Assembly: GCA_026391945.1 (NCBI GenBank)
Contig: JAPLDA010000102.1
Coordinates: 1-54,104, forward strand
Length of the DNA: 54,104 nt
DNA from: Bacteroidota bacterium
GTDB taxonomy: Bacteria; Bacteroidota; Bacteroidia; AKYH767-A; 2013-40CM-41-45
Direction: 5' to 3'
Shown: positions 8,101 to 31,039 of the stretch, in pieces
Layout: every line of letters starts with the position of its first letter
Position numbering within the stretch: the first letter of the stretch is position 1
Made by a program: the position numbers and the translations under genes
The notes under the pieces: model-generated
Databases searched by the model: none
Seen by the model: the letters and a program-made list of their open reading frames with translations, nothing else
What the model was told of the DNA's origin: nothing

Positions 8101-9450
8101 TTATATTTTAGTCACTTTCGAACTTACTTTCTGCTCTCCGAAAATCAGGTTGAGCGTGTAGGTTCCGCTTTCCAGGTTGTGTTGATCCCTGAACACATGC
8201 ACATTTTTTCCCTGCGTCACCTGGTACGTTTCGGAACTTCTTATTTTTCCTTTCGAATCTGTAAGCTGAATCCACACCCTTCCGTCGGCGGGAATGAAAT
8301 ACGATACATCGAATGATTTATTGAATGGCAACGGGCTGATGCGTTCGATGCTGAGTTCTTTTTTAACAGAGAGTTTGATCGCCGACAGCGGATGAACCAC
8401 GAATTTTCCGTCACGGAAATTCTGGCGCAACCTGTAATAATAGATCGTTGCCGAAGAAGCAGGTTTGTCGGTGTACACATATTCATCACCGTCGGCCAGG
8501 TTCGGATTTGCTTTGATGGTTGCAATCGTTGTAAAATCCGTTCCGTTGATGGAACGTTGCAATGCAAAATAATCAGCATGATCATTTGCTGCCGATGACC
8601 AGTGAATTTTTACTCCCTGTCCGTCGGATTCAATCATGAAATTCACCAGTGATTCTGCCAATGGAACGAGCGAACCCGTTGAACGAATTACGAGGTTGTC
8701 AAAAACCGGTATGTCTTTTCCGCCGCCGTTCATCTCTTTCCCGATGATGATATTGCCCGCATTCTTCCAGTACATCGAGGTGAGCGGTGATCCGGAAGAA
8801 CTCCAGACGATGATGTTGTTCACGAAAATTTCTCCTTTCCCGTTCAACGGGTCATAGATGAACCGGTAATTCCTGAACACGTCATCCACGGGAATTTCAT
8901 AATCGGTGGAAGCCGTTACGGATTCATAACCTCCTTTTTTGTTGTCGACACGGTAAGCGATGGTGATGAAACCTTTGTTCATACCAAAGTTGAATGAGCT
9001 ACCGCGTGAAAAGAAATTCCCGGAACTTTCATTCCGGCGGTAGTCGATGCTGATGTCAATGCCATCCTGGTCGAACAGGGGAGACGACGGTATCACCAGG
9101 TGAATGTCTTTTCCGTTTGTACCGGGAGCCAGCCCGCGCGTGGACGATCGTCCGCCCGGTGCTGCATGGGCAGCGCTGCTTGCGGAGATGGCATCCGGGC
9201 CTAACGTGGAATGTGTAACCGGATCTTTTTCCCAGGTGAATTCACTGATGATTTCACTGTTGCGGTTTAGCTGGTTGCCGCCATTGTCGCCGTTTCCTGA
9301 AGCTCTCGTATGGGATAGCTGAGTCATGTTCAGGTACACCAGCCAGCCGGTGACGAGCGTGAGTACAATGGACAATGCCCCAACTACCATCAGCAACTTT
9401 CCGCTGAGCTTCAATTTGATCCTGTTTCTTTGTCGTAATTTTTTATTCAT
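8101..9450 (-). CDS. Membrane-anchored surface protein with LamG-like and T9SS-type C-terminal regions
   Basis: A 449-residue protein. Residues 1-40 form a very basic start (RQRNRIKLKLSGK) and one hydrophobic helix, the same module as in the neighbouring genes. A Gly/Ser/Asn-rich spacer follows, then a region of about 150 residues that resembles a LamG/jelly-roll fold (SIDYRRNESSGNFFSRG through VFDNLVIRSTG). Next is the Bacteroidota pre-sorting segment (VKIHWSSAANDHADYFALQR, YYYRLRQ) and a C-terminal beta-domain ending GTYTLNLIFGEQKVSSKVTKI-like, consistent with a T9SS type A sorting domain. It is the last gene of a five-gene run, 63 nt after the previous one. Function is unknown; surface exposure is inferred from the domain layout. 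Confidence 0.75.
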   Translation of the reverse strand: MNKKLRQRNRIKLKLSGKLLMVVGALSIVLTLVTGWLVYLNMTQLSHTRASGNGDNGGNQLNRNSEIISEFTWEKDPVTHSTLGPDAISASSAAHAAPGGRSSTRGLAPGTNGKDIHLVIPSSPLFDQDGIDISIDYRRNESSGNFFSRGSSFNFGMNKGFITIAYRVDNKKGGYESVTASTDYEIPVDDVFRNYRFIYDPLNGKGEIFVNNIIVWSSSGSPLTSMYWKNAGNIIIGKEMNGGGKDIPVFDNLVIRSTGSLVPLAESLVNFMIESDGQGVKIHWSSAANDHADYFALQRSINGTDFTTIATIKANPNLADGDEYVYTDKPASSATIYYYRLRQNFRDGKFVVHPLSAIKLSVKKELSIERISPLPFNKSFDVSYFIPADGRVWIQLTDSKGKIRSSETYQVTQGKNVHVFRDQHNLESGTYTLNLIFGEQKVSSKVTKI

Positions 9451-9513
9451 TCCGGCTTCAATATAATTTTAACGGTGATCCAGTAGGCATAAATTGATAC
9501 TGGTTTCTTTCAT

Positions 9514-12189
9514 TTAATTCTTCACAATTTTCTGAAGGAACTTTTTATCCTGGTAAAAAAGAATGACATAATAAATTCCCGACTGGAGATTCTGGAAGTC
9601 GATGAACTCGTATTGGTTCATTCCGTCATTGGCGGTGATCGTTTCTTTTTTTATTGTCTGACCGGATGAGTTGATCAGCTGAAAATCCACGGCTGCCGAC
9701 GTTTTCAGGATAAAGGATACCGTAAAACTTTCATGGAAAGGATTCGGAGTTACGGAAGTGATTTTGAGTTCTGCATCATCTTCTTTCGTATTGTTCTTTA
9801 CGGTCGTGATTTCTGAATAGGTGAAATGTCCGTTGTAATCGGTTTGCTTCAGCCTGTAATATGAATAACCCTGCAATGGATTTTCATCAACATCTGAATA
9901 GTACAGGGCTACCGTGCTGTTGCCGGCTCCCGGTTTCCTGAGCAGCGGATCAAAATGAGTTCCGTCCGATGATCGTTCAATGGTGAAATAATCATTGTTC
10001 AGTTCAGAGGCTGTTGCCCAGGTAAGATCCACTTTGTTTTCTTCAAGCTTCGATTTGAAATAAATCAGCTCAATCGGCAAGGATCCTGCGGCGGAATAAC
10101 CGATGCCGATATGCGAGTTGTTGAAATTGGAAAACGCAGAACGCTTCGCAGTAACCACTCCGCTGTTTACGCCCTGTGTGCCGTTGCTGTGTGTGCCGAC
10201 GGATTGCCATGCAGAAGTTGCATTTTGCCTTACCAAAATCGTGTACGACTGCGGCGACGGACCAGAATTGGATTGACCGTTTTCATTCGCAGTCACCGCA
10301 TACGTTCCGCCGGTCATCGCTGTATTCGCAGCAAGTGTCCAGTAACCGTAGTCGAGCATGTTGTCAACCGTTGTTCCATTCACGGCAACACCGGTGAGCG
10401 GGCCGCTGAGCGGATTCGTGTTGACGAAAGACGCGAGGATGTTGGTGAACCCGGTGGCGCTGCTCAGCGTGACGTTCAGCAGTTCGGAACTGGAAGAAGT
10501 TCCGATAGGGAAATCATACGATCCTGTTCCGTTTACATTCCTTCGTAAATTTCCGACAATGTAATTGGTGGCAGAATAACCCGTAATGGCAGAAGGAGAA
10601 GTGTTGGAGACTTGTATGGCCTGTGAACCGGCAATCAGTTTTCCGCTGGTCAGCGCCAACACTCCGGAGATATTGATTTCTTCATTGGATGAAAAAGTCA
10701 CACCGGATGCATTGTTGATGGTGAGATTGTGAACATTTTCCGGAAGGCCGTTGCCGGTTACCTGGGCGGCTGTTCCGTTGTATGTATAATTACCTCCTGA
10801 ACTTAAAGAGATGGATCCGGTGACCTGTATATTTCCCGTCGTTCCGTTTTCTGATATTCCATTTGGTGAGCCGATCAGAATTCCTCCCCCGCTGTTCAAT
10901 GTAAAATTATTTCCGAGGAGAATGTTTGTTCCGAGGTCGAGAATCGTTCCGCTGTTCACGGTATAATTCATACTGCCAGTAACGGTATTTCCAGATGCAA
11001 CGAATGTCTGGATTCCTGTTTTGCTGAAATTAAATTGTGCAGTGGTATTGATGTTCCCTGTAACGCTGATGGTTCCACCGGTATGAGCATAATTTCCGGA
11101 AAGGTTAATGGTGCCGGTCGCATTGTTTCCACTTGCAGAAACAAAACTGCCTGCCGACAAACTGTAGTTTCCTGCGACATTCAAGGTGCCGACAGCATTG
11201 GTTGAACCAGCGAGAGCGATCGTGCCACCTGTTTGTGAATAATTTCCTGAAACGGTTACCGTTCCGGTGCTGTTGTTTCCTTCAACAACAAGCAATGATC
11301 CGCCCGACAGATTATAATTTCCCGAAATTGTTATTGAACCGCTTGCATTGGTTGAACTGGTAAGAGAGAGGGTTCCGCCGGTGACAGATAAATTTCCGGC
11401 TACTGCAAGCGTCGCTGTACCGGTTCCTAAGTAGACTTCTTTGGTTCCGGTATTGGAAATGGTCAGGTCACCATTCATCGATGTCACTCCTCCGCCTAAA
11501 TTGATGTTGGCTGTTTGCGAAGGACAGTTCCAGGTGAAATTGTAAAATGACTGAAGCCCGGTTGGCGCTGTTGCACAGGTTGTGTAGCCGACGATTTCAC
11601 AAGTTGAACCGGTACTCCATGTTGCCACTGGAATGGCTCCTGCAGTGGTGGTAAAATTATGCTGGTACTTTCCGCCGTTCTCAAAAATGATGTTCGCATT
11701 CGCATTGATCGTAACGGTTCCGGAATTTTTAAATATTCCGGATACATCAAAATCAGTCCCGGCGCCATTGGCAATGGTTAGTGTTTTTCCGGAAGCCAGA
11801 TCCAGTTCACCGCCCGAACTGATCACCAACTGGTCAATGGATGCATTCGCACTTACCGTGACGATGTGGCCGCTCTGTATGGTAACAATTCCGCCAGCTA
11901 TAGTCGGTGCTGCGGTGGCAGCAACCCAGGCGGTTCCATTGTATTTTTGCCACGTGGCAATGGTACTCCAGTTTCCTGATGCAGCGGATCGGAAATCACC
12001 GCTGGAGGCAGCAAACGTATTTTGAGAATTCGATAAGTTAAAGAATACAAACAAACCGGCGGTGACCAGCAGGCATGTTGCCGCCGCTACCACCACGACT
12101 TTTCTTACAGAGAGCTTTGTACGTGTTCTCATCACCAGCCGTGATTTTTTCCGGCCTCTTGTATTATTCCTTAGTTGCCTTGATCTCAT
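9514..12189 (-). CDS. T9SS-sorted beta-solenoid surface protein
   Basis: An 891-residue protein. The N-terminus is long and basic, then KLSVRK and a hydrophobic helix ending GLFVFFNLS. A module starting SAASGNWSTIATWQKYNG and continuing TIQSGHIVTVSANASIDQL resembles the first strands of G8/autotransporter-like beta-helices. Five repeats of exactly 25 residues lie at about 259-383. The C-terminal part has LPIELIYFKSKL, the ELNNDYFTIERSSDG segment, YYRLKQTDY, and a terminal T9SS type A sorting domain (VTPNPFHESFTVSF, SGIYYVILFY). It is probably exported and attached to the cell surface as an adhesin- or matrix-like protein. The start at 12189 could be replaced by the internal Met at residue 20. 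It begins 4 nt after the upstream gene. Confidence 0.82.
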   Translation of the reverse strand: MRSRQLRNNTRGRKKSRLVMRTRTKLSVRKVVVVAAATCLLVTAGLFVFFNLSNSQNTFAASSGDFRSAASGNWSTIATWQKYNGTAWVAATAAPTIAGGIVTIQSGHIVTVSANASIDQLVISSGGELDLASGKTLTIANGAGTDFDVSGIFKNSGTVTINANANIIFENGGKYQHNFTTTAGAIPVATWSTGSTCEIVGYTTCATAPTGLQSFYNFTWNCPSQTANINLGGGVTSMNGDLTISNTGTKEVYLGTGTATLAVAGNLSVTGGTLSLTSSTNASGSITISGNYNLSGGSLLVVEGNNSTGTVTVSGNYSQTGGTIALAGSTNAVGTLNVAGNYSLSAGSFVSASGNNATGTINLSGNYAHTGGTISVTGNINTTAQFNFSKTGIQTFVASGNTVTGSMNYTVNSGTILDLGTNILLGNNFTLNSGGGILIGSPNGISENGTTGNIQVTGSISLSSGGNYTYNGTAAQVTGNGLPENVHNLTINNASGVTFSSNEEINISGVLALTSGKLIAGSQAIQVSNTSPSAITGYSATNYIVGNLRRNVNGTGSYDFPIGTSSSSELLNVTLSSATGFTNILASFVNTNPLSGPLTGVAVNGTTVDNMLDYGYWTLAANTAMTGGTYAVTANENGQSNSGPSPQSYTILVRQNATSAWQSVGTHSNGTQGVNSGVVTAKRSAFSNFNNSHIGIGYSAAGSLPIELIYFKSKLEENKVDLTWATASELNNDYFTIERSSDGTHFDPLLRKPGAGNSTVALYYSDVDENPLQGYSYYRLKQTDYNGHFTYSEITTVKNNTKEDDAELKITSVTPNPFHESFTVSFILKTSAAVDFQLINSSGQTIKKETITANDGMNQYEFIDFQNLQSGIYYVILFYQDKKFLQKIVKN
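11041..11415 (-). repeat. Five in-frame 75-bp repeats coding 25-residue solenoid turns
   Basis: Residues about 259-383 of the host gene consist of five 25-residue units of pattern GT-x-V-x-GNY-x-x-TGGT with an Asn/Ser-rich end. Unit length is constant, as expected for one coil of a right-handed beta-solenoid. Nucleotide similarity between units is moderate, so this is an older expansion. Confidence 0.75.
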
Positions 12190-12193
12190 GGTT

Positions 12194-14656
12194 TTATTTT
12201 AGGTTATTTTTAATGACCTTTTGTGAGATCATTTGGTTGCCGCTTGTCAGTGTCACAACATAAACTCCTTTCGGGAGCGTGTTACGTTCAGTGAAATCAT
12301 ACTGGTTCAAACCATCGTTGGCCCGGATAACATCTTTGAAAAATAATTGTCCGCTTGAATTCACCAGTGTAAATGCAACATCCGCTGTTTCATGCATGAT
12401 AAAATTCACTGTGAATTTTTCATCGAAAGGATTCGGGTAAACAGCCGTAATCTTCAGCGACTGTTCAGGATCATTCCCTGGTTTGTATTTGATGGTTTTT
12501 ATTTCTGAATACGTAAACCGGCCGTCATAATCGGTTTGCTTCAGCCGGTAATAGGAATAACCGGTCATGGGTTTTTTATCCACGTCAGAATAATGAATCG
12601 TGACCGTGCTGTTGCCGGCGCCTCTTTTCCGGAGTACCTCTTCAAACTGTTTACCGTCGGATGAACGTTCCACAGTAAAATAATCGTTGTTCAGTTCTGA
12701 AGCTGTAGCCCAGGAAAGATTGACGACATCTTTGTTTAACTCCGCATTGAAAAATATGAGTTCAATCGGCAGTGATCCGGCTGAAGAAAAACCAATACCG
12801 AAATGCGTGTTGTTGAAATTTGGAAAAGAAGAACGCGATGCCGTCACCACCCCGCCTGCAACACTTTGTGTTCCGTTGTTATGTGTTCCGATGGATTGCC
12901 AGGCTGATGAAACATTTTGTCTCGACAGCACAGTGTACGACTGAGTAGTAGGGCCAGGATTGCTTTGTCCTCTTTCAACCAGCGTAACATCATACGTTCC
13001 GCTGCTCATGGTGGCATTGGGTGTCAATGTCCAGTAACCGAAATCGAGCATATTGTCAACCGTTGTTCCGTTGACGGTGATGCCGCTTAACGGCACAACA
13101 ACAGGATTGGTGTTGACAAACGTTCCGAGGATGTTTGAAAATCCTGCAGCACCGGATAAATTTACCGTGGCCAATTCATAATTTGAAGTGGTTCCCAGGG
13201 GAAAAACATACGAGCCTGTTCCGCTGACGCTTCTTCGTAAATTTCCGGAAACATAATTCGATGATGAATAGCCGGTGATGGCTGAAGTAGCAGTATTCGT
13301 GATGCTCACTTCATTCGATCCTGTCAAAAGAATTCCGGTGGTAAGATTCAGGATATTTGAAACAGCGACAGTTGATGTCAAAGTCACATTGGAACTGTTG
13401 CTGATCGTGAGGTTGTGAACGGTTGCCGGAATACCGTTTCCGGTTACCTGTGCAGTAGCACCGTTGAAAGTAAAGTCGGCGCCGGTGCTGTAAGTCCTGG
13501 TTCCTGTGACCTGTATGCTGCCGGATGCACCGGAACTCGTAATTCCGTTTGCGTTGGCTGTCGTGATCGCTCCGCCTGAGTTCAGGTCGAATGTTCCGGT
13601 GGATCCGTTAATGATGTTGGTTCCGAAATTTACATTTGCTCCCGACAGGATGGCAAAGTTGATGGCTCCTGAAAATGTTGCTCCTGAATTTGAAAATGCC
13701 TGCACGGATGTTCCGTTGAAATTAACGGCTCCGCTTCCTCCGCCTTTTTGAAAAGTTCCGCCGGTAAGCGTAACATTCCCTGCCAGGTTCAATACTGTTG
13801 CACCACTGAAACCATTCAACGTAAAAGTTCCGCCGCTTTGAATGAAATTTCCGGAAACCGTGAGGTTCGCATTGGCACTCCAGGCGAGTTCCACATCGCC
13901 AGCGCCAGTGCTCACAATGTTCAGGTCACCGAGTACCGTTGTAAGTGATCCGCCCAGGCTTACACCGGTTCCGCTTATCTGGCCCGGACAATTCCATGTA
14001 AAGTTGTAGAAGTTCTGGGTAAGGCCATTCAGTGTGCTGTTGTAACTGGTGTACCCGATGATTTCACACGTGGAACCTGTGTTCCATGTTGCCACCGGAA
14101 CAGTTCCGCTGGTTGTTGTGAAATTGTGCTGGTATTTTCCGCCGTTTTGAAAGGCCATGGTTGAGCTCAGATTTTGAGTTACCGTTCCGGCATTTTTAAA
14201 TATACCGGTCACATCAAAATCGGTTCCGGCACCATTTGCAATCGTCAGTGTCTTTGCACTGTTGAGTATGACAGTGCCTCCTGAATTGATCACCACCTGG
14301 TCAACCGTAACGCTGGCAGTAATCGTAACTGTATTTCCTGTTTGAATGGTGATTACTCCGTCAGCGCTCGTAGGAGTGGAGATAGCGGCCACCCAACTGG
14401 TTCCATTGTAACGTTGCCAGGTGGTTGTGCTGCTCCAGTTTCCTGTGGCTGCAGAACGGTAATCACCGGTTGCAACGGCCAACACTTTTTCAGGATTCGA
14501 GAAATTAAAAAACAAGATCAATCCTGAAACAAGGAGAACAATTGCACAGGAGGCAACCAGCAGGATTGTTTTTCCGCTGAGCTTGTTACGGTTTCTCATG
14601 CCCATTTTATTCCTTCGGTTGCCGGAATTTAATGGCTTATGTAAATTGATTTTCAT
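12194..14656 (-). CDS. T9SS-sorted beta-solenoid surface protein, paralogue
   Basis: An 820-residue paralogue of the 9514-12189 product. The basic start leads to RNRNKLSGKTILLV and a helix ending GLILFFNFS, then GDYRSAATGNWSSTTTWQRY and TIQTGNTVTITASVTVDQV. The middle is a Gly/Thr/Asn-rich solenoid, less regular than in its neighbour. The C-terminal region repeats the neighbour's order: LPIELIFFNAEL, ELNNDYFTVERSSDG, YYRLKQTDYDGRF, then VYPNPFDEKFTVNF and GVYVVTL of the T9SS sorting domain. The pair most likely arose by tandem duplication. The gene is 11 nt from the upstream gene and 4 nt from the downstream one. The role at the cell surface is inferred; there is no enzymatic motif. Confidence 0.82.
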   Translation of the reverse strand: MKINLHKPLNSGNRRNKMGMRNRNKLSGKTILLVASCAIVLLVSGLILFFNFSNPEKVLAVATGDYRSAATGNWSSTTTWQRYNGTSWVAAISTPTSADGVITIQTGNTVTITASVTVDQVVINSGGTVILNSAKTLTIANGAGTDFDVTGIFKNAGTVTQNLSSTMAFQNGGKYQHNFTTTSGTVPVATWNTGSTCEIIGYTSYNSTLNGLTQNFYNFTWNCPGQISGTGVSLGGSLTTVLGDLNIVSTGAGDVELAWSANANLTVSGNFIQSGGTFTLNGFSGATVLNLAGNVTLTGGTFQKGGGSGAVNFNGTSVQAFSNSGATFSGAINFAILSGANVNFGTNIINGSTGTFDLNSGGAITTANANGITSSGASGSIQVTGTRTYSTGADFTFNGATAQVTGNGIPATVHNLTISNSSNVTLTSTVAVSNILNLTTGILLTGSNEVSITNTATSAITGYSSSNYVSGNLRRSVSGTGSYVFPLGTTSNYELATVNLSGAAGFSNILGTFVNTNPVVVPLSGITVNGTTVDNMLDFGYWTLTPNATMSSGTYDVTLVERGQSNPGPTTQSYTVLSRQNVSSAWQSIGTHNNGTQSVAGGVVTASRSSFPNFNNTHFGIGFSSAGSLPIELIFFNAELNKDVVNLSWATASELNNDYFTVERSSDGKQFEEVLRKRGAGNSTVTIHYSDVDKKPMTGYSYYRLKQTDYDGRFTYSEIKTIKYKPGNDPEQSLKITAVYPNPFDEKFTVNFIMHETADVAFTLVNSSGQLFFKDVIRANDGLNQYDFTERNTLPKGVYVVTLTSGNQMISQKVIKNNLK

Positions 14657-14667
14657 AGATGCCGGGA

Positions 14668-17600
14668 TTATTTTTTAATTATTTTTTGTGTTATTTTTTT
14701 GTCGTTGTAAAGGATGGTCAGGATGTACATCCCGGGTGTTAAACCGGTTTGATCCGTGTATTCGTAACGGTTGCTGCCGGCTTCAGCATTCATGTCTTCA
14801 GCATTCACCAGTTGTCCTCCCGTTGTACTCAGTCGTACATTCACCGGTCCGGCTTTGTCGGTTCGATACACCACATGAAAAGAATTTTCGAATGGATTCG
14901 GACCGATATCCTCAATGACAAAATTGTCGGCTTTGATATCGTGTATATTCACTGACTTGATTTCCGAGTACGTAAAATGGCCGTCATAATCAGTTTGTTT
15001 TAAGCGGTAATACGAAGTTCCTTCGATAGGATTTTTGTCGATGATGCCGTAGTTCAACGTGATGTTGCTGTTGCCTGCTCCCGGAATTTGCTGGATACTT
15101 TCAAAGTTTATTCCGTCCCGGCTTCTCTCTATATCAAAATGGTCGTTGTTTATTTCTGCTGCCGTGATCCAGTTGATCTTCACTTCATTTCCTTCCGCCT
15201 TTGCCTGGAACAAAGCGAGTTTGATTGGCAGCGGGTTGGAATGACTGATGATGACCAGGTGCGAAAAGGATGATATGCCGCTGGCCGAAACCCTGCCCGC
15301 TGCGCTGGTACTGCCGGTTCCATTACCGGTTGGTTGACCCCAGTCGCTTCCTGTCCACGGAAGAATGGCAAGTGAACCTGTTTTGTTTACCGGTGACAGC
15401 GTATTTTCCGCAGCGTCATAAGTGAGTGTAATGTCTGCTGTGAATCCCGGGGCGGAAATGTTCCACCAGCGGTCGATCACATCCGTCACGGAAATATCGT
15501 TTCCGTTGATCGCCATGTTTACCGGTTGTGTACTGTTAGCGATGAGCGGGTAAGGCTGGTTGTCGGTAGAAGAGGTGGCGCGCGTTGAAACGGAAACATC
15601 TCCGCCGAAACCTGATACAGGAGTGAAGTCAACAGGAATGTAAGTACCTGCATTCACACCGAATGGGAAAGTATGAGTGCCGGAAACAAGATGTTTCCAG
15701 TTGATGATGCTTGTGTTATTGGCAGCGTTCATCTCGCTTTTGATATACCCGCCGGTTCTTGAAATGGCTGAAGGAATTCCTGACTCAACGGAAAGTGTAT
15801 ACCCATTCAGGTTCAGTTCGCCATGAACCAGTTCGAGCCGCGTTCTTACAAAAACATTCGATGATACAAGAGCCGTGTATTCCGTGTTGTCTGTTCCGTT
15901 AAAATTGATGCGTAGAATTCCGTACTGGTGCTGGCTGAGTGTTGCAATTCCCGCTCCTGTTCCGGAGATCGCCTGGTTGTCGGAACCGTTGTATTCCACC
16001 ACGCTGTTTGCATCCAGGAAAAAATTCATGTTGTTTGCCGCGCAGATGCTTGCGGCATTGCTGCCGTCATACAAACCACGCGCACGATACGTCCGGAGAA
16101 TTCCACCGGAGTCGACACGCATCCCGCAATAGGTTCCCATGCTGTTCGATACAACTTGTCCGCTGTTGATGTTGAGTGCTCCGCCGGCAGCGATTCTCAG
16201 GAAATCATTGGATGCCGTAGTGTGTGCCATCACCTGTAAATTTCCCGATGCAATGTTGAGGATGCAGTTGGCTGCTATGGTTTGTTTTACCTGTTGGATA
16301 AAATGTGAATTGGCAAGCCTGCTGAATTGAATGGTTCCGTTTCTCCTGTAGTTAAGCTGACCGAAAACGGTTCCTGTTCCGGCGACAGCATGAGTGATCA
16401 ACCCGTTTCCTGAAATGGTATAATGTGGTCCGGAAATATTCAGTACATGCGTTGCGCAAACAGGAGAGGAGTTGTTGTCATAAGTCAGCGTTCCGTTGGA
16501 TTGTGTAAAATCTCCGTTCACCGATAACGAGACCACCTGTGAAGAAGGTACCGATGTGTTGTTATGAAAATAAATTCCGCCGCCGCTTTGGTTCAGTGAA
16601 CCGTTCACATTCATGGCCGTGGCTCCTGTATCGCCTTTGATGGAAAGACTTCCCGATGAAACGGAAACATTTCCGTTTACCGATACTGCCGTGGCTCCGC
16701 CGTTGTGAGATAGGAATGTATTGCCACCGTTGATGAGGAGGTCGCCGCCGATGGCAATGGAAAGATCATGCGATGCCGCCGATGTTCCGTAATTGAAACT
16801 CGACAGCGTTCCATTCACCTGTACATTTCCGTTGACGATCACGTTTTCGGTTCCGGATGAAGCAGCACTGGTGAATTCAGAAGTGCCGGTTCCGTTGATC
16901 GAAAGGTTTCCGCCGATCGTCATGTTCAGCCGTGCATTGTTCATGGTGGAGCCGATGGACGAGAGCGAAGTCCCCCTGAATTTATCAGCAGCATTTGAAA
17001 AATTAATATTGAAATTATTGGTGATGTTGATGGAGCAAAGTCCGCCGGATGAATGACAGGCCGTTTGTCCCATGAAAATTCCTCCGTTCAAAACAAGGTT
17101 GCCAAAGGATGCGGAGAACGTTCCTGAATTCAGCGTCGTCACATTATAGAGAATGCGCGTATCGCCTGTTGACTGCGAGAATGTTCCGGCTACGTTGAAG
17201 GCAGCATTGCCGTTACTCACAGCACCCACTCCCGAGTTGTTGATGATTTTTACGTTTCCCAGGTTGGTAAAATTTCCGTTTACATTCACGGTGATGTTTC
17301 CGTTACCGTCATTCAATCCGTAAAAAATTCCACCGGTGTTGCTGATGCTGTTCGTGGTGATGGTAAACGATGAAGGATGAGTTCCGTAGTGTCCGTAAAA
17401 AATGGAGTTCACGGAAGTCAGTACAATGTTCCCGATAGTGGTGGTAGTGATGTTTCCCGATTTGTCTAAGGTCACCCAGCCCTGGTCAACGGTAAGGGTT
17501 CCTGTTACCGGGTGAGCCTGGAAGCCGTTGTCCTGGTTCCATTCCACGATGGTGTTGGAAACAGAAGGAGAGTTCAGCGTGAGGTTTCCGAAACTTCCGG

Positions 17601-18147
17601 TGATCACGGTGCTGAGAGGTATCAGGTAGTTGTACCATTTTTTGATGATGAGTGTGCTGGTGGGAGAAAAATTTTCTGATCCGTTCGTAAACAGCGAAGC
17701 TCCTGCAAGCGTATTGTTTCCCGGCTGCCATGTAAACGACGAGCCGGCTCCGAGTGTAAATAGCACTCCGGGAAGTGTCAGGCTGATGTTTCCGCCGTTC
17801 ATCGTTACGGCGCCATTCACAGAAAAAATTCCGCTGATGGAAAGGATGCTTGAGTTCGTCCAGGTGAGTGTTCCGCCTGTCGAAACCGTTACAGCATGTA
17901 CCTGTTGATTGGCATTGACCGTGATGGTATGCCCGGCGCCAATGGTGACGTTATCCGATGCAGCCGGAACACCAGCCGGGCTCCAGCAGGTTGGTGAATT
18001 CCAGTTTCCCGATGCCACGGTGGTTTTGTTGCTTGCATGGAGAACAGGCATGTTGAAAACAAGCAGGGCAATCCATGTACAGATCAACCGGATTTTTATT
18101 TTGTATGGGAAATTTTTCAGCATTTTTTTTCGTGGTGTTGGTAACAC
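14668..18147 (-). CDS. Large T9SS-sorted beta-solenoid surface protein
   Basis: An 1159-residue protein. Unlike its neighbours it has an ordinary signal peptide (helix ending NMPVLHAS). The mature part begins TTVASGNWNSPTCWSPAGVP followed by VTIGAGHTITVNANQQV, the same G8-like opening. A long solenoid of INGN/VSGNFTQ-type strands fills residues about 100-900. The C-terminal part has LPIKLALFQAKAEGNEVKI, EINNDHFDIERSRDG and YYRLKQTDYDGHF, and ends with a T9SS type A sorting domain (IGPNPFENSFHVVY, GMYILTILY). The Met at residue 9 (position 18123) is preceded by a run of A and may be the real start. It follows the 99-residue gene by 18 nt. Confidence 0.82.
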   Translation of the reverse strand: MLPTPRKKMLKNFPYKIKIRLICTWIALLVFNMPVLHASNKTTVASGNWNSPTCWSPAGVPAASDNVTIGAGHTITVNANQQVHAVTVSTGGTLTWTNSSILSISGIFSVNGAVTMNGGNISLTLPGVLFTLGAGSSFTWQPGNNTLAGASLFTNGSENFSPTSTLIIKKWYNYLIPLSTVITGSFGNLTLNSPSVSNTIVEWNQDNGFQAHPVTGTLTVDQGWVTLDKSGNITTTTIGNIVLTSVNSIFYGHYGTHPSSFTITTNSISNTGGIFYGLNDGNGNITVNVNGNFTNLGNVKIINNSGVGAVSNGNAAFNVAGTFSQSTGDTRILYNVTTLNSGTFSASFGNLVLNGGIFMGQTACHSSGGLCSINITNNFNINFSNAADKFRGTSLSSIGSTMNNARLNMTIGGNLSINGTGTSEFTSAASSGTENVIVNGNVQVNGTLSSFNYGTSAASHDLSIAIGGDLLINGGNTFLSHNGGATAVSVNGNVSVSSGSLSIKGDTGATAMNVNGSLNQSGGGIYFHNNTSVPSSQVVSLSVNGDFTQSNGTLTYDNNSSPVCATHVLNISGPHYTISGNGLITHAVAGTGTVFGQLNYRRNGTIQFSRLANSHFIQQVKQTIAANCILNIASGNLQVMAHTTASNDFLRIAAGGALNINSGQVVSNSMGTYCGMRVDSGGILRTYRARGLYDGSNAASICAANNMNFFLDANSVVEYNGSDNQAISGTGAGIATLSQHQYGILRINFNGTDNTEYTALVSSNVFVRTRLELVHGELNLNGYTLSVESGIPSAISRTGGYIKSEMNAANNTSIINWKHLVSGTHTFPFGVNAGTYIPVDFTPVSGFGGDVSVSTRATSSTDNQPYPLIANSTQPVNMAINGNDISVTDVIDRWWNISAPGFTADITLTYDAAENTLSPVNKTGSLAILPWTGSDWGQPTGNGTGSTSAAGRVSASGISSFSHLVIISHSNPLPIKLALFQAKAEGNEVKINWITAAEINNDHFDIERSRDGINFESIQQIPGAGNSNITLNYGIIDKNPIEGTSYYRLKQTDYDGHFTYSEIKSVNIHDIKADNFVIEDIGPNPFENSFHVVYRTDKAGPVNVRLSTTGGQLVNAEDMNAEAGSNRYEYTDQTGLTPGMYILTILYNDKKITQKIIKK

Positions 18148-18165
18148 AATTCAGTGACCGGAAAT

Positions 18166-18465
18166 TTATTGGGTGATGGAAGTTGGAGCCAGTGGCTTTG
18201 CCTGCTTCACATGCATCGCATTTGGATTGACCGAAGCCTGCGGATTAATTTCAGGTGCAGGAATACTTTTTTCTGTCGTAAACACCTGGTCGGAAACCAT
18301 GATCACATTCAGGTTGGTTGCCTTGCTCTGGTCCACGCGCGACAGGTTGAAAAAAATGGTGAGCCCGATCACCATGCAGGTCATTGCTGATGCAACTAAA
18401 ATGATCGTAGTTCTTCGTGATAGCTTTTGACGCTGACGTTGACGCATATGGTTTCGTTTTTTCAT
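18166..18465 (-). CDS. Small membrane protein carrying the cluster's shared N-terminal module
   Basis: A 99-residue protein of unknown function. Residues 1-20 are strongly basic (RQRQRQKLSRRT) and 21-42 hydrophobic, ending GLTIFFNLS, nearly the same as the N-termini of the products of 9514-12189 and 12194-14656. The remaining 55 residues are proline-, valine- and asparagine-rich with no recognisable domain. The predicted topology is one membrane helix with a short extracytoplasmic tail. It is the first gene of the five-gene run. It may be a small partner of the large proteins, or the remnant of a large paralogue that lost its C-terminal part; the sequence does not decide between these. Confidence 0.65.
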   Translation of the reverse strand: MKKRNHMRQRQRQKLSRRTTIILVASAMTCMVIGLTIFFNLSRVDQSKATNLNVIMVSDQVFTTEKSIPAPEINPQASVNPNAMHVKQAKPLAPTSITQ

Positions 18466-18765
18466 CGTTGATCCGGTACGGACACTATGATAGTTGGTAT
18501 GTTTGTACGTTCAGCAGAGATTTAGGTGGAAGAAATCAACGATGAATGCAAGCCCGGAAATGTCAGTTGTAAGATTTTCGCAAAGAGGGAATGGAATCGT
18601 AAACGCAGCGTGTGAATAAATCAACCCATCAGCATAAGAAGAAACCGGGAGGAGAAAATACGTGATTTGAACTGTTGCCAGAAATGTAAGATTCCCGGCT
18701 GACGTAAACAAAAAACCCTGCAAGGGGGATTGCAGGGTCTTTTTCTATGGGCAAATTGCAAATTG
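18466..18765. other. Intergenic region upstream of the surface-protein run
   Basis: This 300-nt gap holds the terminator of the sigma-54 activator gene at its right end. I find no exact TAnnTTTG box and no sigma-54 type -24/-12 element on the minus strand before the 99-residue gene, so the promoter of the run is not identified. Confidence 0.5.
18709..18743 (-). terminator. Rho-independent terminator, possibly bidirectional
   Basis: The arms ACCCTGCA (18715-18722) and TGCAGGGT (18731-18738) form an 8-bp stem with an 8-nt loop. It is followed by a T-run on either strand (AAAAAA to the left, CTTTTTCT to the right). It lies just after the stop of the sigma-54 activator gene, separating it from the surface-protein run. 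Confidence 0.85.
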
Positions 18766-19935
18766 TTAATCGTTCACGAAGACAAGATCTTCGGCTGTGA
18801 TGGTTCCGTTTTCCGCGAGTATGGCTGCACGTTCAATCACTGCTTTCAGTTCACGAACATTGCCGGGCCATTTGTAATCCATCATGGCTTTCACGGCATC
18901 TTTGGAAATCGTTACAGGCTGAATGCGGTTCTCTTTGCAGAAATCACTGAGGAAACTTTTCGACAGCATGATCACGTCATCACCACGCTCAAAAAGAGGA
19001 GGGAGGTGAATGAGAAATCCCTGCAAACGGTAAAACAAATCTTCACGGAAACGTCCTTCTTTCACTTCCACAGCGAGGTTCTTGTTGGTGGCTGCAATCA
19101 CGCGCACATCGAGTTTGATGGGTTTGTTGCTGCCGATCCTGGTCACTTCTTTTTCCTGGAGCACACGCAGTAATTTCGTTTGAAGAATGGGATCCATTTC
19201 ACCGATTTCATCCAGGAAGATGGTACCTTCATTGGCTTCTTCAAACTTTCCGATTCTCCGGTCGCGTGCATCCGTGAAGGCTCCTTTTTCATGGCCGAAC
19301 AATTCACTTTCAATCAGGTCTTCAGGAATGGCGCCCATGTTCACCGTCACAAATGGCTTGCGCGCACGCGGCGAATTGTAGTGGATGGCCCGTGATACAA
19401 GTTCTTTTCCTGTACCGCTCTGGCCGGTTACCAGCACCATGATGTTGCTCTTTTCCACTTTCTGGATCAGCTTCAGCGTCTTTAAAACAGCGGAGCTGTT
19501 GCCGAGAATATTTGTGTACCTGTTCCGGTCGATGATCTGGTCTTTCAGCGTTTCATTTTCCTTTTTCAGGTTTACATTTTTGCAAAGGTTCCTTACGGAA
19601 TTTTCGAGGTTTACAATGGCGTTTTCATTCTTGATGATGTAATCTTCCGCGCCTTTTTTGTAGGTCTCCACTACGACATCCAGTTTTTCCTGTCCGGATA
19701 CAATCACGCACTGGATGTTGTCGTTGTAGTTTTTTATTTTTTCCATCAGCTCCAAACCATTCATTTCAGGCATGAGGTAATCGATGGAAACGATGTCGGG
19801 ATTGAGGTGAAGGTTGTTGAGGCATTCCACCGGCGAAAGAAAATGTGTTACATCTACATTCTCCAGTTTCTCAATGGCTTTCTTGATGAGGTTTCCCAGG
19901 AACTGGTCGTCATCAACAATGAATATTCTGATCAT
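18766..19935 (-). CDS. Response regulator with sigma-54 activator ATPase, lacking a DNA-binding domain
   Basis: Residues 1-120 are a receiver domain (acidic cluster DDD 8-10, phospho-acceptor D52 in SIDYLMPEMNG). Residues about 140-370 are a sigma-54 AAA+ domain: Walker A GQSGTGKE at 171-178, Walker B TIFLDE at 238-243, and FREDLFYRL further on. The loop that contacts sigma-54 reads GAFTDA (218-223) instead of GAFTGA. The protein ends shortly after VRELKAVIERAAILAENG, so the usual Fis-type helix-turn-helix is absent (389 residues against about 450 for NtrC-like proteins). Known HTH-less activators work from solution on the RNA polymerase. It is 139 nt downstream of a hybrid histidine kinase, its likely phosphate donor. 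Confidence 0.88.
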   Translation of the reverse strand: MIRIFIVDDDQFLGNLIKKAIEKLENVDVTHFLSPVECLNNLHLNPDIVSIDYLMPEMNGLELMEKIKNYNDNIQCVIVSGQEKLDVVVETYKKGAEDYIIKNENAIVNLENSVRNLCKNVNLKKENETLKDQIIDRNRYTNILGNSSAVLKTLKLIQKVEKSNIMVLVTGQSGTGKELVSRAIHYNSPRARKPFVTVNMGAIPEDLIESELFGHEKGAFTDARDRRIGKFEEANEGTIFLDEIGEMDPILQTKLLRVLQEKEVTRIGSNKPIKLDVRVIAATNKNLAVEVKEGRFREDLFYRLQGFLIHLPPLFERGDDVIMLSKSFLSDFCKENRIQPVTISKDAVKAMMDYKWPGNVRELKAVIERAAILAENGTITAEDLVFVND

Positions 19936-20074: not shown

Positions 20075-22615
20075 TTATTTCATCCCGGTTAGTTCTTCCT
20101 CTAATTCGGCGAATGCCGACTGGCTCGATTGTTTGACGTTTGAGATCAGCTCCGGAATTTTTTCCAGGTTTGTTTTTGAATCACTGCACGATTCAATTTC
20201 GGCAAGCAGTTTCTGGGTGTCACCGAGTCCCATGTAGCTGTACGAAGGTTTGATCCGGTGTGCGATCAGCCGGAGTTCTTCCCAGTTTTGCTTTTTGAAA
20301 CACTCATTCATTTCTTCCAACGCTCCCGGCGTATTCTTCAAAAACATTTCAATCATCTCGACGATGAATTCATCGTTGCCGTCGGCTATCTGTTTCAGGT
20401 AGGTCAGGTTGATTTTGTTTTCTTTCATTGGGGGAATGATTGGATTCTCTTTTATTTCTCTTTCACTTTCTTTATTTAACGTTACATCCGCTGTTGGATG
20501 GATATCCTCATTCTTCGCTTCCATGGATGCGTGTACCGGTTCATTCGCTGAATGTACAGATGCATTCTCCTGTGTCGAAGTATTTTCATTCTCCATGTTT
20601 ACGGAAGTATTTTCCTGTATCGAAGTATGTTCATTCGCCGCACCAGTGTTCTCATCCGTTTTTACAGGCAGGTTTAACGTTTCCGTTTTTGCCAGGTGAA
20701 CGAGATCAAGAATTTTTTTCTTGAGGTCAGCCGGGTTGAAAGGTTTGGATATGTACTGGTTCATGCCGAGGTCAAAACATTTTTGTTTTTCCATGGGAAC
20801 AGCATGGGCAGTCATGGCCATGATCGGAACGCTCCGATATGGTTCACCGAGTTCGCTGCGGATTTTCTGGGCGGCCGTATAACCATCCATTTCCGGCATC
20901 TGGATATCCATCAGCACGATATCGTATTGTCCGGCCTGCAGTTTTTCCATGGCGATTCTTCCGTTGCCCGCGATTTCAACATGGGCATCCCAGTCTGTCA
21001 GAACTTTTTTCACAATCAACTGGTTGATGGCGTTGTCTTCCGCCACGAGGATGCTCAGGCCGCTGAGTGTGTCACTGGTTTCTGATGGAAGAATGGATTG
21101 TTTGATTTCATTGGCTGCGATTTCATACGTGAGGTGGAAAAAGAATGTAGTGCCTTCTCCAGGTTTGCTTTTCACGCCGATGGTACCGCCCTGCAATTCG
21201 ATCAGTCGTTTTACAATGGTGAGCCCTAGCCCGGTTCCGCCGAATTTGCGCGTAGTGTCGCTGCTGGCCTGCGTAAAACTTTCGAAGATGCTGCCAAGGC
21301 TTTCTTTCGGAATACCGATCCCCGAATCTTTTACTTCGATGTCGAGGGTTACATTTTTATCACGCTTACTCCGGAGCGATAAGTTCATGGAGACCTCTCC
21401 GTGTTCGGTGAATTTTATGGCATTGCCGACGAGGTTGTTCAGGATCTGGCTGAGACGGGTAGGATCGCCGCAAAGCGACGACGGTATGCTGGAATCAATG
21501 TTTACGTTGATGCTGATTTTCTTCTCGTCGGCTTTTGCTTTAAACAACTCCATCGTATGGTGGGTAATCTCATGGATGGAGAATGGAACTTTTTCAAAGT
21601 TCATTCTTCCGGCTTCTATCTTCGAAAAGTCGAGGATGTCGTTGATGATGACGAGCAGGTTGTCGGAAGAAGTCTTGATGGACTTCATGTACCCGTATTG
21701 TTCCTCGTTGAGTGTTGTTTTCAATAAGATATGTGTCAGGCCGATGATTCCGTTCATCGGTGTGCGGATTTCATGACTCATGTTCGCAAGGAATTGTTCC
21801 TTGATGACAGCTGCTTCTTCAGCCAGTTGTTTCGCCTTCTTCAGTTCCTGTTCAGCGCGCTTGTGATCGGTGATGTCGGATGATACACCGATGATACCGG
21901 TGATGTTATTGTCCTTGTCGCGAACAGGAGCATAATAGGCCTGGTGATACTGTCCCTGCAATTCAAGAATGGCGCTTACTTCCTCACCTTTCATCGTTCT
22001 GTCAAAAATATCGATCACCTCCGGAAACAGCTTTGCAAAATGATGGATGTCCTGGCCGATGATCCGGCTTTTGTCGGCACCGAGTGCTGCCACACCTTTT
22101 CCTTCAAAGAGGGTAAATATTCCGTTCTTGTCGAGTGCGAAGAGAATGATCGGCGAATTGCAGACGATGGTCTGAAGCTGCTTCTGCGCCTCATCCAACA
22201 TCCGTTGCATCCGTTCTTTTTCCCTTTCGGATTCTTTGAAACGAATTACGTAACGCAGGCTTTGCGAAAGTCCTTCCGGGGAGAGGAGGTTCTTCGGAAT
22301 GTAATCGGAAGCCCCGCTCTTCATCGCTTCTACCGCCACTTTTTCATCGCCGTGCGATGTGACGATGATAATCGGGGAATTATTTCCATGCTCACGAATG
22401 GATCTAAGCAATTCAAGCCCTGTGCCTCCCGGTAAATTATAATCGAGGAAAATGCAATCGTAGTCTTTGCCGATCGTTGCTTCCATGCCGGTCTCATGAT
22501 CTTCGGCAAACGTCACCTCCACATTGATTCCGGACGACTTCAACGAGCGCTTCATGATCATGCGATCGAGTTCATCATCTTCTACCACGAGAATTTTTAA
22601 CAGTTGGTTATCCAT
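20075..22615 (-). CDS. Hybrid histidine kinase (REC-PAS-HisKA-HATPase-REC-HPt)
   Basis: Domain order in 846 residues: receiver (D58 in FLDYNLPGG), a PAS-like sensor at about 150-255 (ILFALDKNGIFTLFEG, YYAPVRDKDNNITGIIG, then SSDITD), HisKA with H281 in NMSHEIRTPMNG, HATPase (N box around 403-410, SGIGIP 441-446, FGGTGLGL 468-475), a second receiver (D570 in VLMDIQMPEMDG), a low-complexity linker at about 660-720, and a C-terminal HPt domain with H786 in LIAHRIKPSYS. No transmembrane helix is seen, so it senses cytosolic signals. The intact phosphorelay residues suggest transfer from H281 to D570 to H786 and then to a separate regulator, most likely the sigma-54 activator encoded next. Confidence 0.92.
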   Translation of the reverse strand: MDNQLLKILVVEDDELDRMIMKRSLKSSGINVEVTFAEDHETGMEATIGKDYDCIFLDYNLPGGTGLELLRSIREHGNNSPIIIVTSHGDEKVAVEAMKSGASDYIPKNLLSPEGLSQSLRYVIRFKESEREKERMQRMLDEAQKQLQTIVCNSPIILFALDKNGIFTLFEGKGVAALGADKSRIIGQDIHHFAKLFPEVIDIFDRTMKGEEVSAILELQGQYHQAYYAPVRDKDNNITGIIGVSSDITDHKRAEQELKKAKQLAEEAAVIKEQFLANMSHEIRTPMNGIIGLTHILLKTTLNEEQYGYMKSIKTSSDNLLVIINDILDFSKIEAGRMNFEKVPFSIHEITHHTMELFKAKADEKKISINVNIDSSIPSSLCGDPTRLSQILNNLVGNAIKFTEHGEVSMNLSLRSKRDKNVTLDIEVKDSGIGIPKESLGSIFESFTQASSDTTRKFGGTGLGLTIVKRLIELQGGTIGVKSKPGEGTTFFFHLTYEIAANEIKQSILPSETSDTLSGLSILVAEDNAINQLIVKKVLTDWDAHVEIAGNGRIAMEKLQAGQYDIVLMDIQMPEMDGYTAAQKIRSELGEPYRSVPIMAMTAHAVPMEKQKCFDLGMNQYISKPFNPADLKKKILDLVHLAKTETLNLPVKTDENTGAANEHTSIQENTSVNMENENTSTQENASVHSANEPVHASMEAKNEDIHPTADVTLNKESEREIKENPIIPPMKENKINLTYLKQIADGNDEFIVEMIEMFLKNTPGALEEMNECFKKQNWEELRLIAHRIKPSYSYMGLGDTQKLLAEIESCSDSKTNLEKIPELISNVKQSSQSAFAELEEELTGMK

Positions 22616-27872: not shown

Positions 27873-30638
27873 TTATTCTTTTCCGATCACCAGTTTCTGC
27901 CGGATGGTTTCTTCCGTATTCGTTGCCGTGATGATGAACATGCTGCCCATCCTGCAAAATTCATGATCAATGCTGAGTTTCAGGTCGCCGAAATTTTCAG
28001 ATGACGTGGTTGCCGACGGAATTATTTTTCCCGTGACATCCTGAACAGTGATTTGATAAGTACTCAAATCGTTGCCTGAGTATTCCAGGTTAACATCTTT
28101 CCCATTGGATGGATTCGGGTAAACGTTGAAGATGCTTTTGTTCTTGTTGAGAATGCTGACCGGGGTGAAACACGTGAAATGCCCGTCGTAATCCGTTTGC
28201 CTGAGCCTGTAATAAGATGTTCCTGCCAGCGGGTTCCTGTCGGTGTATGAATAAGAATGTGTAACCGTTGAATTGCCGGCTCCGTCAACAGTGGCTATGG
28301 CATCGTAATGCACATTGTCTTTGGAACGTTCAACGGTGAAGTAATCGTTGTTGATTTCCGACTGCGTCGTCCAGTTTACATCCACATATTTTCCATTCAG
28401 CCGGGCATCGAAAGCCGACAGTTCAACAGGAAGCGGGTTGCCGCCGCCCGGAGGGTTGCCCAATGCAAAATACGTATGGAAGTTGTTGAAGGTACTCGAC
28501 AGTATGTTTCCGGTTCCGTTGGCTGTTGCCACTCCGCCGAAGTTTTGCCATAAGGCCACACCGTTGTCATGTGCAACAAGCAAGGTGTTTTTATTAGCCA
28601 CGCCGTCATCCAGGTCATAATACATCTGGATTCTTCCGGTGGAGAAATTGGCAACGTTCTGCCTGGTGAACATCACGTAACGCACATTCGATACGTTGGC
28701 AATGGTTCCCGGAAGACCGTATGGAAGTGCTGTTGCAGGCGAATTGATTATTTCAGCACGGTACGTTACGGAAGTTGCATTGCTGTGTTTGATGGTAAGA
28801 ACCACGGGGCGGTACTTGGTACTTTTACCAACAGGGAAGGTTTTCGCTGTGGATGTTAGGGTTGCCCAGGTGTGAACCATCGGCCCGTCGACGTATGAAC
28901 TGGCGCTGCCGATGTTTGCATTGGCGGCACTCTGGCAGGTAAGGATATTGGTATTGGTGGTGAGCAGTTTTCCGTTCACCATCGAGAGAAAGTTACTCAC
29001 ATTCGCCGCTTTGTTCAAAGTAATGTTGCTGGAATTGTTGATGACAAGATTGTAAAACGTCGTCACGCTGATGCCGCCGATAGCCTGTGCACCGCTGGTG
29101 TTGAAGGTCACCGTTCCAAGACGTGCTGTGAAAGTTCCGTTGTTGTAAATGGCATCTGTACCGTTTGCAGTGCCTAACAAGGTCATCTGTTTGGCATCAC
29201 CAACAGTACCGCTGATGGAACGGACGTCAAATGTTTTTCCGATGTCGATGTATAGGCTGAGCAAAATGAAATTCGTTGTGGTGGCCGCTGAGGTAGCTAA
29301 GCTGATGGCGGATGCATTGTTGCCGGTGATTTTGAAATTCGGGTACGTTGCCGTAGCATACGGTTTGAAATTAAATATTTTTCCTGCAGCCGTTGAGGCA
29401 TTTCCATATACGATGGTACCTCCGGTTGTAGTGACGGTTCCGCTGGTTCCGCAAATGGCTGCGTCAATGGTGGCAGCACCGGCGATGTTCGGCGACTGAA
29501 GCGTGATGGTTCCCCCGCTCATCTGGAAAGAACTTCCCGCCACATCGTTGATATAAAACACCTGCCTGTTGGTGCCGGTAGTTCCGTTGTTGAGCAGGAT
29601 TGTTCCTCCTGTCATCTTGAAACTAAAGGGTTCTGTTGTGGATGAGGTTCCATAGGTGATGCCTCCGTAAACAGTGAGCGTACCTGCTGAAACTTCAAGG
29701 TAAGGAACAGGAGCGCCGTTCTGATCGGAGCGTAATCCCTGTAATCCTGCCGTTGTGCCGATTTTTACGTTTCCGCCGTTCACATACAACTGTCCCTGTA
29801 AATACACATTGTCGGCGGCCGAAGCGAACCACATGGTTCCCACCGGAACTTTAAATGTCATGGTGGGCCCGATGGTAAACGTAGCTACCGTCGGGTTGAT
29901 GCTGTAAGTGCCGGCATTGTTGTGAATATAGGTACCGGTGTTTCCGACGAAACTTTTGATTCCGTTTTCGAATGAAACCGTTTGCACATCCAGGGTATTG
30001 GCCTGTGCTGTTTTATTTAATGTAACGGTGTTGAGATCCCATGCGCCCGATCCGTTGATGGTGCTGTTGGTCGCTGTGTTGAAAGTTAAATTGACTACTT
30101 GTCCGAGGTTGACATAAAAGTCAACAATACCGAAGTTGGAAAAATTACTTCCCACATTCACCGTATGAGTACGGGCAACGGTGGTATTGTACCAGAATTT
30201 GGCTCCTGTATTCACCGTGATGTTCCCGGTAACGGTAACAGCGAAATTGGCTGTGGATTTGAATTCAAGAATTCCGGAAGCTCCTTGTCCCACGTTGATG
30301 GTCGCACAATTCACGGCTGACGTGATGAACACCGTATACCCATTCCCGATGTTGGCGATATCGCCGGCAACCGGGAAGGTTCCTGTATTGGTGGCATTTC
30401 CGTAAGTGACGGTCGACCAGGTCGTGTTCACATTCCAGTTTCCTCCGCTGGTTCTTGAATAATAGGTTGTGGCCTGTGCATCGCTGATGAGCAGGATTGC
30501 AAAAATCAAAATGGCAGCAACGCCACCGGTATGCTTCCTGGTACTTCCCAGGACTTTCCCGACGGATTTTTTTGCTGCTTTGATTTGGTTGAGTACTGCA
30601 GTGAATTCAATCATCACCTGAAGTTTTGATTTTTTCAT
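27873..30638 (-). CDS. T9SS-sorted beta-solenoid surface protein between the tyrosine-catabolism genes
   Basis: A 921-residue protein from the chosen start; the frame is open 14 residues further (to 30680), but the internal ATG at 30638 has A-rich upstream bases (TATCTTAAA) and begins MKKSKLQ. An unusually long N-region (about 45 residues, basic) precedes a helix ending LLISDAQA. The mature part opens YYSRTSGGNWNVNTTWSTV, the same G8-like start as the proteins at 9.5-18.1 kb, then a beta-solenoid of about 600 residues. The end carries LPVELSAFDARLNGKYVDV, EINNDYFTVERSKDN, YYRLRQTDYDGHF and a terminal domain starting VYPNPSNGKDVNLEY. It lacks the KLS...FFNLS module of the main cluster. It has its own terminator. 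Confidence 0.8.
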   Translation of the reverse strand: MKKSKLQVMIEFTAVLNQIKAAKKSVGKVLGSTRKHTGGVAAILIFAILLISDAQATTYYSRTSGGNWNVNTTWSTVTYGNATNTGTFPVAGDIANIGNGYTVFITSAVNCATINVGQGASGILEFKSTANFAVTVTGNITVNTGAKFWYNTTVARTHTVNVGSNFSNFGIVDFYVNLGQVVNLTFNTATNSTINGSGAWDLNTVTLNKTAQANTLDVQTVSFENGIKSFVGNTGTYIHNNAGTYSINPTVATFTIGPTMTFKVPVGTMWFASAADNVYLQGQLYVNGGNVKIGTTAGLQGLRSDQNGAPVPYLEVSAGTLTVYGGITYGTSSTTEPFSFKMTGGTILLNNGTTGTNRQVFYINDVAGSSFQMSGGTITLQSPNIAGAATIDAAICGTSGTVTTTGGTIVYGNASTAAGKIFNFKPYATATYPNFKITGNNASAISLATSAATTTNFILLSLYIDIGKTFDVRSISGTVGDAKQMTLLGTANGTDAIYNNGTFTARLGTVTFNTSGAQAIGGISVTTFYNLVINNSSNITLNKAANVSNFLSMVNGKLLTTNTNILTCQSAANANIGSASSYVDGPMVHTWATLTSTAKTFPVGKSTKYRPVVLTIKHSNATSVTYRAEIINSPATALPYGLPGTIANVSNVRYVMFTRQNVANFSTGRIQMYYDLDDGVANKNTLLVAHDNGVALWQNFGGVATANGTGNILSSTFNNFHTYFALGNPPGGGNPLPVELSAFDARLNGKYVDVNWTTQSEINNDYFTVERSKDNVHYDAIATVDGAGNSTVTHSYSYTDRNPLAGTSYYRLRQTDYDGHFTCFTPVSILNKNKSIFNVYPNPSNGKDVNLEYSGNDLSTYQITVQDVTGKIIPSATTSSENFGDLKLSIDHEFCRMGSMFIITATNTEETIRQKLVIGKE

Positions 30639-31039
30639 TTTAAGATATGGTATGTATGAGTGTTCAAATGGAAATCGCATATTATAATCCGAATCAATTT
30701 ATCGAAATTGAAGTCTTAAAGTTTGCCGCACTTCAGTCAGAATCATGCATTGTAAGGTTTCAACCAAAACCTTCCTTTTTTTCAGAAGTTTCTGATTGGG
30801 ATCTTTGAGAAATAAAAAAAATGAAGATTCCTGTTTTGTACGCTGCTGTAATATCATGGCTGAAATTACCCGGTTATTTTCCTTCACCTTTCCCGCTGAG
30901 GATTTTTGGGTGATGCATTACATTATTTCATTCATTTCTATTTATGATGTGACGGAACAAAGGGCTTGTTTCATATTTCCTTTTTCTATGATGAGATTGA
31001 TAATAAATACATAATTTTGACGCTTCAAAAAAACGAACG
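30639..31039. other. Divergent intergenic region before homogentisate dioxygenase
   Basis: This 401-nt gap between diverging genes should contain promoters for both. A -7 box for the plus-strand gene is visible at its right end; none is clear for the minus-strand gene. Short frames here lack any recognisable protein features. Confidence 0.5.
31012..31019 (+). promoter_or_regulatory. Bacteroidota -7 box for hmgA (TAATTTTG)
   Basis: TAATTTTG matches TAnnTTTG exactly and ends 20 nt before the ATG at 31040. No TTG is seen 19-21 nt upstream. Confidence 0.45.

Follow-up and report, generated by a model that had tools for sequence, protein, structure and literature searches.

Four of the five adjacent proteins considered here, encoded in the window (the whole 54,104-nucleotide stretch of Bacteroidota DNA that was analyzed), begin with a shared N-terminal module, which on sequence comparison appears to be a strongly conserved export signal, not described before, that is found repeatedly across Bacteroidota. 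With moderate confidence, the module is interpreted as a dedicated long Sec signal peptide on a set of cell-surface proteins, probably within a programme regulated by the adjacent two-component system. T9SS research has centered on the C-terminal domain (CTD), with the N-terminal signal treated as generic, and a conserved, distinct N-terminal signal tracking one regulator through several Bacteroidota families would imply that cargo sorting takes place as early as the inner membrane. The module also provides a searchable signature (a basic stretch, [KR][LM]S, 20–21 hydrophobic residues, and N/Q-x8-A), together with a candidate regulator.

Organization of the gene run and architecture of its products

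Five minus-strand open reading frames (G1–G5) lie head to tail at 8101–18465, separated from G1 to G5 by 18, 11, 4, and 63 bases. G1 (18166..18465, minus strand) encodes a small protein of 99 residues, comprised of the module (residues 1–49, MKKRNHMRQRQRQKLSRRTTIILVASAMTCMVIGLTIFFNLSRVDQSKA; 18319..18465, minus strand), in which Ala49 is the predicted −1 residue, and approximately 50 further residues that are moderately conserved in the family of the window (f1). G2 (14668..18147, minus strand) encodes a solenoid-type T9SS protein of 1159 residues, which has an ordinary signal peptide instead of the module and whose start codon is likely the ATG at 18123. G3 (820 residues; 12194..14656, minus strand) and G4 (891 residues; 9514..12189, minus strand) are duplicates with 52% identity, both with module and T9SS CTD, and G5 (449 residues; 8101..9450, minus strand) consists of the module, a ConA/LamG-type jelly roll (residues 67–258), an FN3-like domain, and a T9SS CTD. 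The hydrophobic helix ends in FFNLS in G1 and G4, FFNFS in G3, and YLNMT in G5, which agrees with the sequence-only reading of this DNA, where four of five adjacent proteins had been described as starting with basic residues, then KLS, then one hydrophobic helix, which in three of them ends in FFN(L/F)S. The likeness is beyond chance: the blastp match between G1 and G3, counted over the module alone, has an E value of 7e-8, and a profile built from the four modules of the window recovered a fifth copy in the same genome at 5.5e-16, with the next non-member at 0.33.

Directly upstream of G1–G5 is the gene for a response regulator (18766..19935, minus strand), preceded in turn by that for a hybrid histidine kinase with REC-PAS-HisKA-HATPase-REC-Hpt organization (20075..22615, minus strand). 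A terminator-like hairpin (18715..18738), with a T-run on both strands, stands between the regulator gene and G1, and G1–G5 therefore probably form their own transcription unit.

The T9SS CTD (TIGR04183) was detected above the cut-off in G2, G3, and G4 and was absent from G1; G5 scored 20.7 bits against a cut-off of 23, and its orthologues align through the CTD. In the structural model of G3, a helix (residues 28–53) is followed by many short strands (residues 61–386), a β-sandwich, an FN3-like domain, and the CTD (approximately residues 735–817), which resembles that of NucA. Residues 61–386 are predicted to form a β-helix on the basis of the strand pattern and a single VIA-align row, in which these strands align with the HK620 β-helical tailspike (Z 9.8); Foldseek matches to G3 were mostly to FN3 domains. 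By homology, G2 and G4 are probably solenoid-like. G5 contains a jelly roll of the LamG/ConA type, with an FN3-like domain behind it, and no solenoid; kinship with neurotoxin binding domains, calreticulin, or neurexin was rejected, the fold matches reflecting only the common ConA-like jelly roll. The earlier view of three large β-solenoids with T9SS sorting domains requires correction in that the CTD occurs on all four large proteins, one of which is a jelly roll.

Approximately 150 T9SS CTD stretches were counted in the 3.1 Mb of the whole genome, and the module is present on just a handful of its T9SS proteins. Elsewhere in the window (27873–30680), a T9SS protein of 935 residues, whose start codon may be later, has a hydrophobic segment from approximately residue 52 and a long N terminus without the module.

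Features of the module and its predicted cleavage

The module comprises a basic stretch, [KR][LM]S, approximately 21 uncharged hydrophobic residues, Asn or Gln, eight residues, and [ST]-x-A. Among 94 module proteins, the −1 position is Ala or Gly in all 88 readable modules, a count biased by the inclusion of the Ala in the profile that collected the members, to which the following counts from G5 and the small genes are less subject. The G5 orthologues, gathered by whole protein, retain the Ala in 24 of 27 and the Asn in 25 of 27, and in the small proteins the Ala at the position of Ala49 is the best-conserved residue (20 of 21). The −3 position of the readable modules is Ser or Thr in 66 and Ala, Val, Ile, or Met in the other 22, and Asn or Gln lies nine residues ahead of −1 in 69. 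In one genus, the helix of G5 is interrupted by an Arg and the Ala is replaced by Gly.

Classical signal peptides have shorter h-regions. The module shares with type I (Sec/SPI) signals, such as those of ordinary T9SS cargo, a basic n-region, a hydrophobic core, and small residues at −3 and −1, and it replaces such signals in homologous proteins; its uncharged run, with a median of 21 residues (IQR 20–21), exceeds the short h-region of type I signals (roughly 7–15 residues) and the 14 residues found in the same loci among ordinary T9SS proteins. Hydrophobicity (KD19) is 2.28 in the module versus 1.78 in ordinary signal peptides, and the median number of Lys and Arg residues upstream of the helix (25 residues) is 8 versus 2. 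Most Bacteroidetes signal peptidase I substrates have Gln at +1, the Q-rule (PMC5837995), and given this rule the presence of Gln in only 6 of 88 modules counts against an ordinary signal peptidase I substrate. Because it is longer, more hydrophobic, more basic, and better conserved, and rarely has Gln at +1, the module is distinct from an ordinary signal peptide. The earlier remark that it is unlike an ordinary cleaved one agrees with these differences.

Other signal classes were considered and rejected. A twin-arginine signal is contradicted by the confinement of RR to several small proteins, with SGK, SVR, and SGK in G3, G4, and G5, respectively; the +1 Cys of a lipobox never occurs among the 88 modules; and the G|FxxxE that precedes the helix of type IV prepilins is absent from the module alignment.

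The small-x-Ala at a fixed distance, together with the replacement of an ordinary signal peptide by the module in homologous solenoids, is the reason for which the module is read, from its sequence, as a long cleavable Sec signal; its conservation and its distance from ordinary signal peptides point to a function that probably depends on the sequence. In G2, the homologue of G3 and G4, the ordinary signal peptide ends at approximately the same distance before the start of the solenoid. It must be weighed against this that an uncharged segment of 21 residues has the length of a membrane anchor and that the predicted cut lies approximately nine residues beyond it. The module could accordingly be an uncleaved signal anchor, a stalk holding the protein at the inner membrane by its helix, with [ST]-x-A serving another role; the strict run of 20–21 residues, the strong sequence constraint, the greater conservation of the module than of the rest in the small proteins, and the general departure from the Q-rule would all suit such a tether. 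It is nevertheless unlikely, because nearly all members have the small-x-Ala at a set distance, the module substitutes for an ordinary signal peptide in homologous solenoids, and three of the four module proteins here bear a T9SS CTD, a domain that directs proteins across the outer membrane and could not easily do so with its carrier tethered to the inner membrane. Of the two possibilities raised at the outset, a long targeting signal or a stalk, the distinct and conserved N-terminal signal is therefore retained, and the stalk is disfavored by the fixed small-x-Ala and the position of the G2 signal peptide.

A long cleavable signal could still owe its likeness among these proteins to plain descent, as ordinary signal peptides of recently duplicated genes with no special function. 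The duplication of G3 and G4 and the presence of the small-x-Ala site fit such an origin, and a plausible site, the first half of what the sequence-only reading had named as its own refutation, is found in nearly all members. The second half, recent duplication, is contradicted: for 34 of 35 modules, the closest relative sits on a protein of the same type, usually in another genome, and the module is therefore old. Across 120 species pairs, it retains 32% identity versus 17% for the ordinary signal peptide that G2 carries in the same operon, nearly twice as much, with the mature parts at 44% each. As the module moreover recurs on unrelated proteins in several families and tracks one regulator, simple recent descent is highly improbable. 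Within genera, the dN/dS of the module is ∼0.05, and that of the closest pair of G1 is 0.09. As evidence on cleavage, evolutionary rate is mixed: compared with the LamG domain, the module is less conserved at a distance and about equally constrained within genera. In the small proteins, it is better conserved than the remaining residues, as would be expected if the helix itself matters.

Distribution and association with a response regulator

Searching Bacteroidota with a profile of the module, much as had been proposed, located it well beyond the original run: module proteins occur in 11 of 11 genomes of family f1, in most genomes of the sister family f5, and among T9SS proteins of several further families. 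In the class sample, 37 of 395 genomes have it, on many different T9SS proteins. One class-wide match of the module profile (A3), in genome G225, looks spurious, and a second class search (A7) matched mainly the FN3 part and was left out of the distribution counts. A search of named genomes with solenoid P0002 gave matches to the CTD region only, with the module in none of the 21 loci.

In the genome of the window, contig 93 carries a second small module gene (108 residues) followed directly by a G2-like solenoid (1144 residues; L008:7612-11379), so that the pair of small gene and G2 solenoid is present twice. The recurring order in f1 is response regulator, small module gene, G2, sometimes more solenoids, and G5; in f5 it is REC, histidine kinase, response regulator, small gene, G2, and G5, with some f5 genomes having only the regulator and G5. 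Orthologues of G1 are found at the same place in both families, followed by G2 orthologues of ∼1030–1245 residues. In the f5 orthologues of G5 (L121–L139), the module is kept and the protein ends cleanly before the T9SS CTD; the module is therefore not tied to T9SS. The link between module and T9SS is consequently looser than the sequence-only reading had it: G3–G5 carry the CTD, and the small proteins, the f5 G5, and a module-LamG protein of 460 residues in family f7 are all without it.

After G5 in these f5 loci, the next genes often encode an MscL-like protein and a conserved secreted protein of ∼310 residues. Family f7 (L195–L198) has repeated pairs of a secreted protein of 160–190 residues and a module protein of 460–590 residues with DUF2341 and LamG.

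The response regulator combines REC with a sigma-54-type AAA+ domain and lacks a DNA-binding domain, with no HTH in nine of nine orthologues read from several families. Its AAA+ loop is GAFTDA in the window and in the other regulators read from f1 and f5, and GAFTGA or GSFTGA in more distant orthologues. Identification as an NtrC-type sigma-54 activator was rejected: the AAA+ domain is present, but there is no C-terminal HTH and the f1/f5 loop is GAFTDA. RpoN was found in 10 of 10 genomes tested, and a search for sigma-54 promoters upstream of 22 small genes and five G5 genes gave no consistent candidate.

Orthologues of this short response regulator (E up to 1e-168), separable from longer paralogues, are present in 39 of the 395 class genomes and are accompanied by the module in 31 of these (p 1e-32; p 1.6e-8 at the level of families). 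When the four families from which the regulator profile had been built were left out, leaving a total of 355 genomes, an approximate figure, eight genomes had both and seven and five had one of the two alone (p 1e-9; family-level p 2.6e-5). The family-level values are the fairer ones, because genomes within a family are related. Module gene and response regulator are adjacent in several families, and f5 also has a histidine kinase upstream of the regulator. Seven loci were examined from regulator-bearing genomes without a profile-level module match, and five of these have a module-like T9SS protein beside the regulator (f6 L226, f10 L227, and f57 L228–L230). In several genomes of f18, f60, and f62, the regulator lies away from the module genes, which, like the lack of a sigma-54 promoter signal upstream of the small genes, counts against the favored reading.

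The following mechanism is proposed. The basic n-region, [KR][LM]S, and helix of approximately 21 residues would lead precursors to the inner-membrane translocon by a route more specific than that of ordinary T9SS cargo, a targeting step that, judging from the high hydrophobicity, is probably co-translational and by SRP. The precursor would be briefly anchored before the only type I signal peptidase cleaves it behind [ST]-x-A; each f1 and f5 genome has one signal peptidase I gene, and a second enzyme thus need not be assumed. Mature proteins with a CTD (here G3–G5) would leave through the T9SS, and those without one (G1, and G5 of f5) would stay or act in the periplasm, with the histidine kinase and the short response regulator setting the timing of production. 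A shared conserved signal and one regulator suggest a dedicated route for the placement of surface proteins. Genomes G012–G015 of family f3, which lack the module, have two tandem signal peptidase I genes versus one in module-bearing families.

Comparison with known sorting systems

No model in Pfam or NCBIfam matches the module above its cut-off, and literature searches returned no description of it. The closest analogies appear to be YSIRK signal peptides and PEP-CTERM/PrsR, although the module departs from the defining features of both. YSIRK/GXXS signal peptides mark a subset of Gram-positive surface proteins and steer their secretion to a site, the septum (PMC5962339). The module resembles them in being long and basic, in having a conserved motif that immediately precedes and enters the hydrophobic part, and in marking a subset of surface proteins, and differs in that its alignments contain no YSIRK or GXXS motif, its hosts are Gram-negative with T9SS, its N/Q-x8-A is fixed, and its helix is longer. 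The NCBIfam SdrC and SdrD models each touch one module, at E 0.002–0.008 only. The ESPR of type V autotransporters places an extra charged and hydrophobic part ahead of a normal signal peptide; it is likewise an unusually long signal sequence on large β-helical surface proteins, whereas the module has one n-region and one helix.

PEP-CTERM/exosortase shares its phylogenetic profile with PrsK/PrsR, a histidine kinase and a sigma-54-type response regulator (PMC1569441). In both cases, a short tag of helix and basic cluster is found on diverse proteins and tracks a sigma-54-type response regulator with a histidine kinase, and polysaccharide-like genes (GT2, CotH, YaiO) are nearby in several f1 genomes. 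The module differs in being N-terminal, with mirrored order, no PEP motif, and no link to exosortase, and its response regulator, unlike PrsR, has no DNA-binding domain, with no shared upstream sigma-54 site found. In f1 loci L073–L077 and L241, genes for GT2, HEAT-repeat, CotH-kinase, and YaiO-barrel proteins immediately precede the response regulator gene, a cluster that looks like one for polysaccharide synthesis.

Processing might also be dedicated: [ST]-x-A lies nine residues clear of the membrane, and an enzyme distinct from signal peptidase I might cut there, possibly in response to a signal, which would couple release to the two-component system. The departures in length and from the Q-rule agree with such processing, as does the tie to a regulator of its own, a trait shared with PEP-CTERM; it is improbable in that no candidate protease was found in the order, where module-bearing families show no additional signal peptidase I and the exosortase-like genes fail to track the module. 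Short exosortase-like frames were found in 11 of 42 genomes of the order and are absent from most module-bearing genomes. More broadly, there is a tentative case for an undescribed Bacteroidota N-terminal sorting system that mirrors PEP-CTERM, with a helix tag, its own cut site, its own histidine kinase and DNA-binding-less regulator, and perhaps a processing or targeting partner of its own. Such a system would determine when or where a chosen set of lectin-like and solenoid surface proteins is placed.

The genome of the window itself has two short exosortase-like frames (∼185–190 residues), with a distribution that does not track the module, at G000:C8:6591-7025 and G000:C9:23993-24403.
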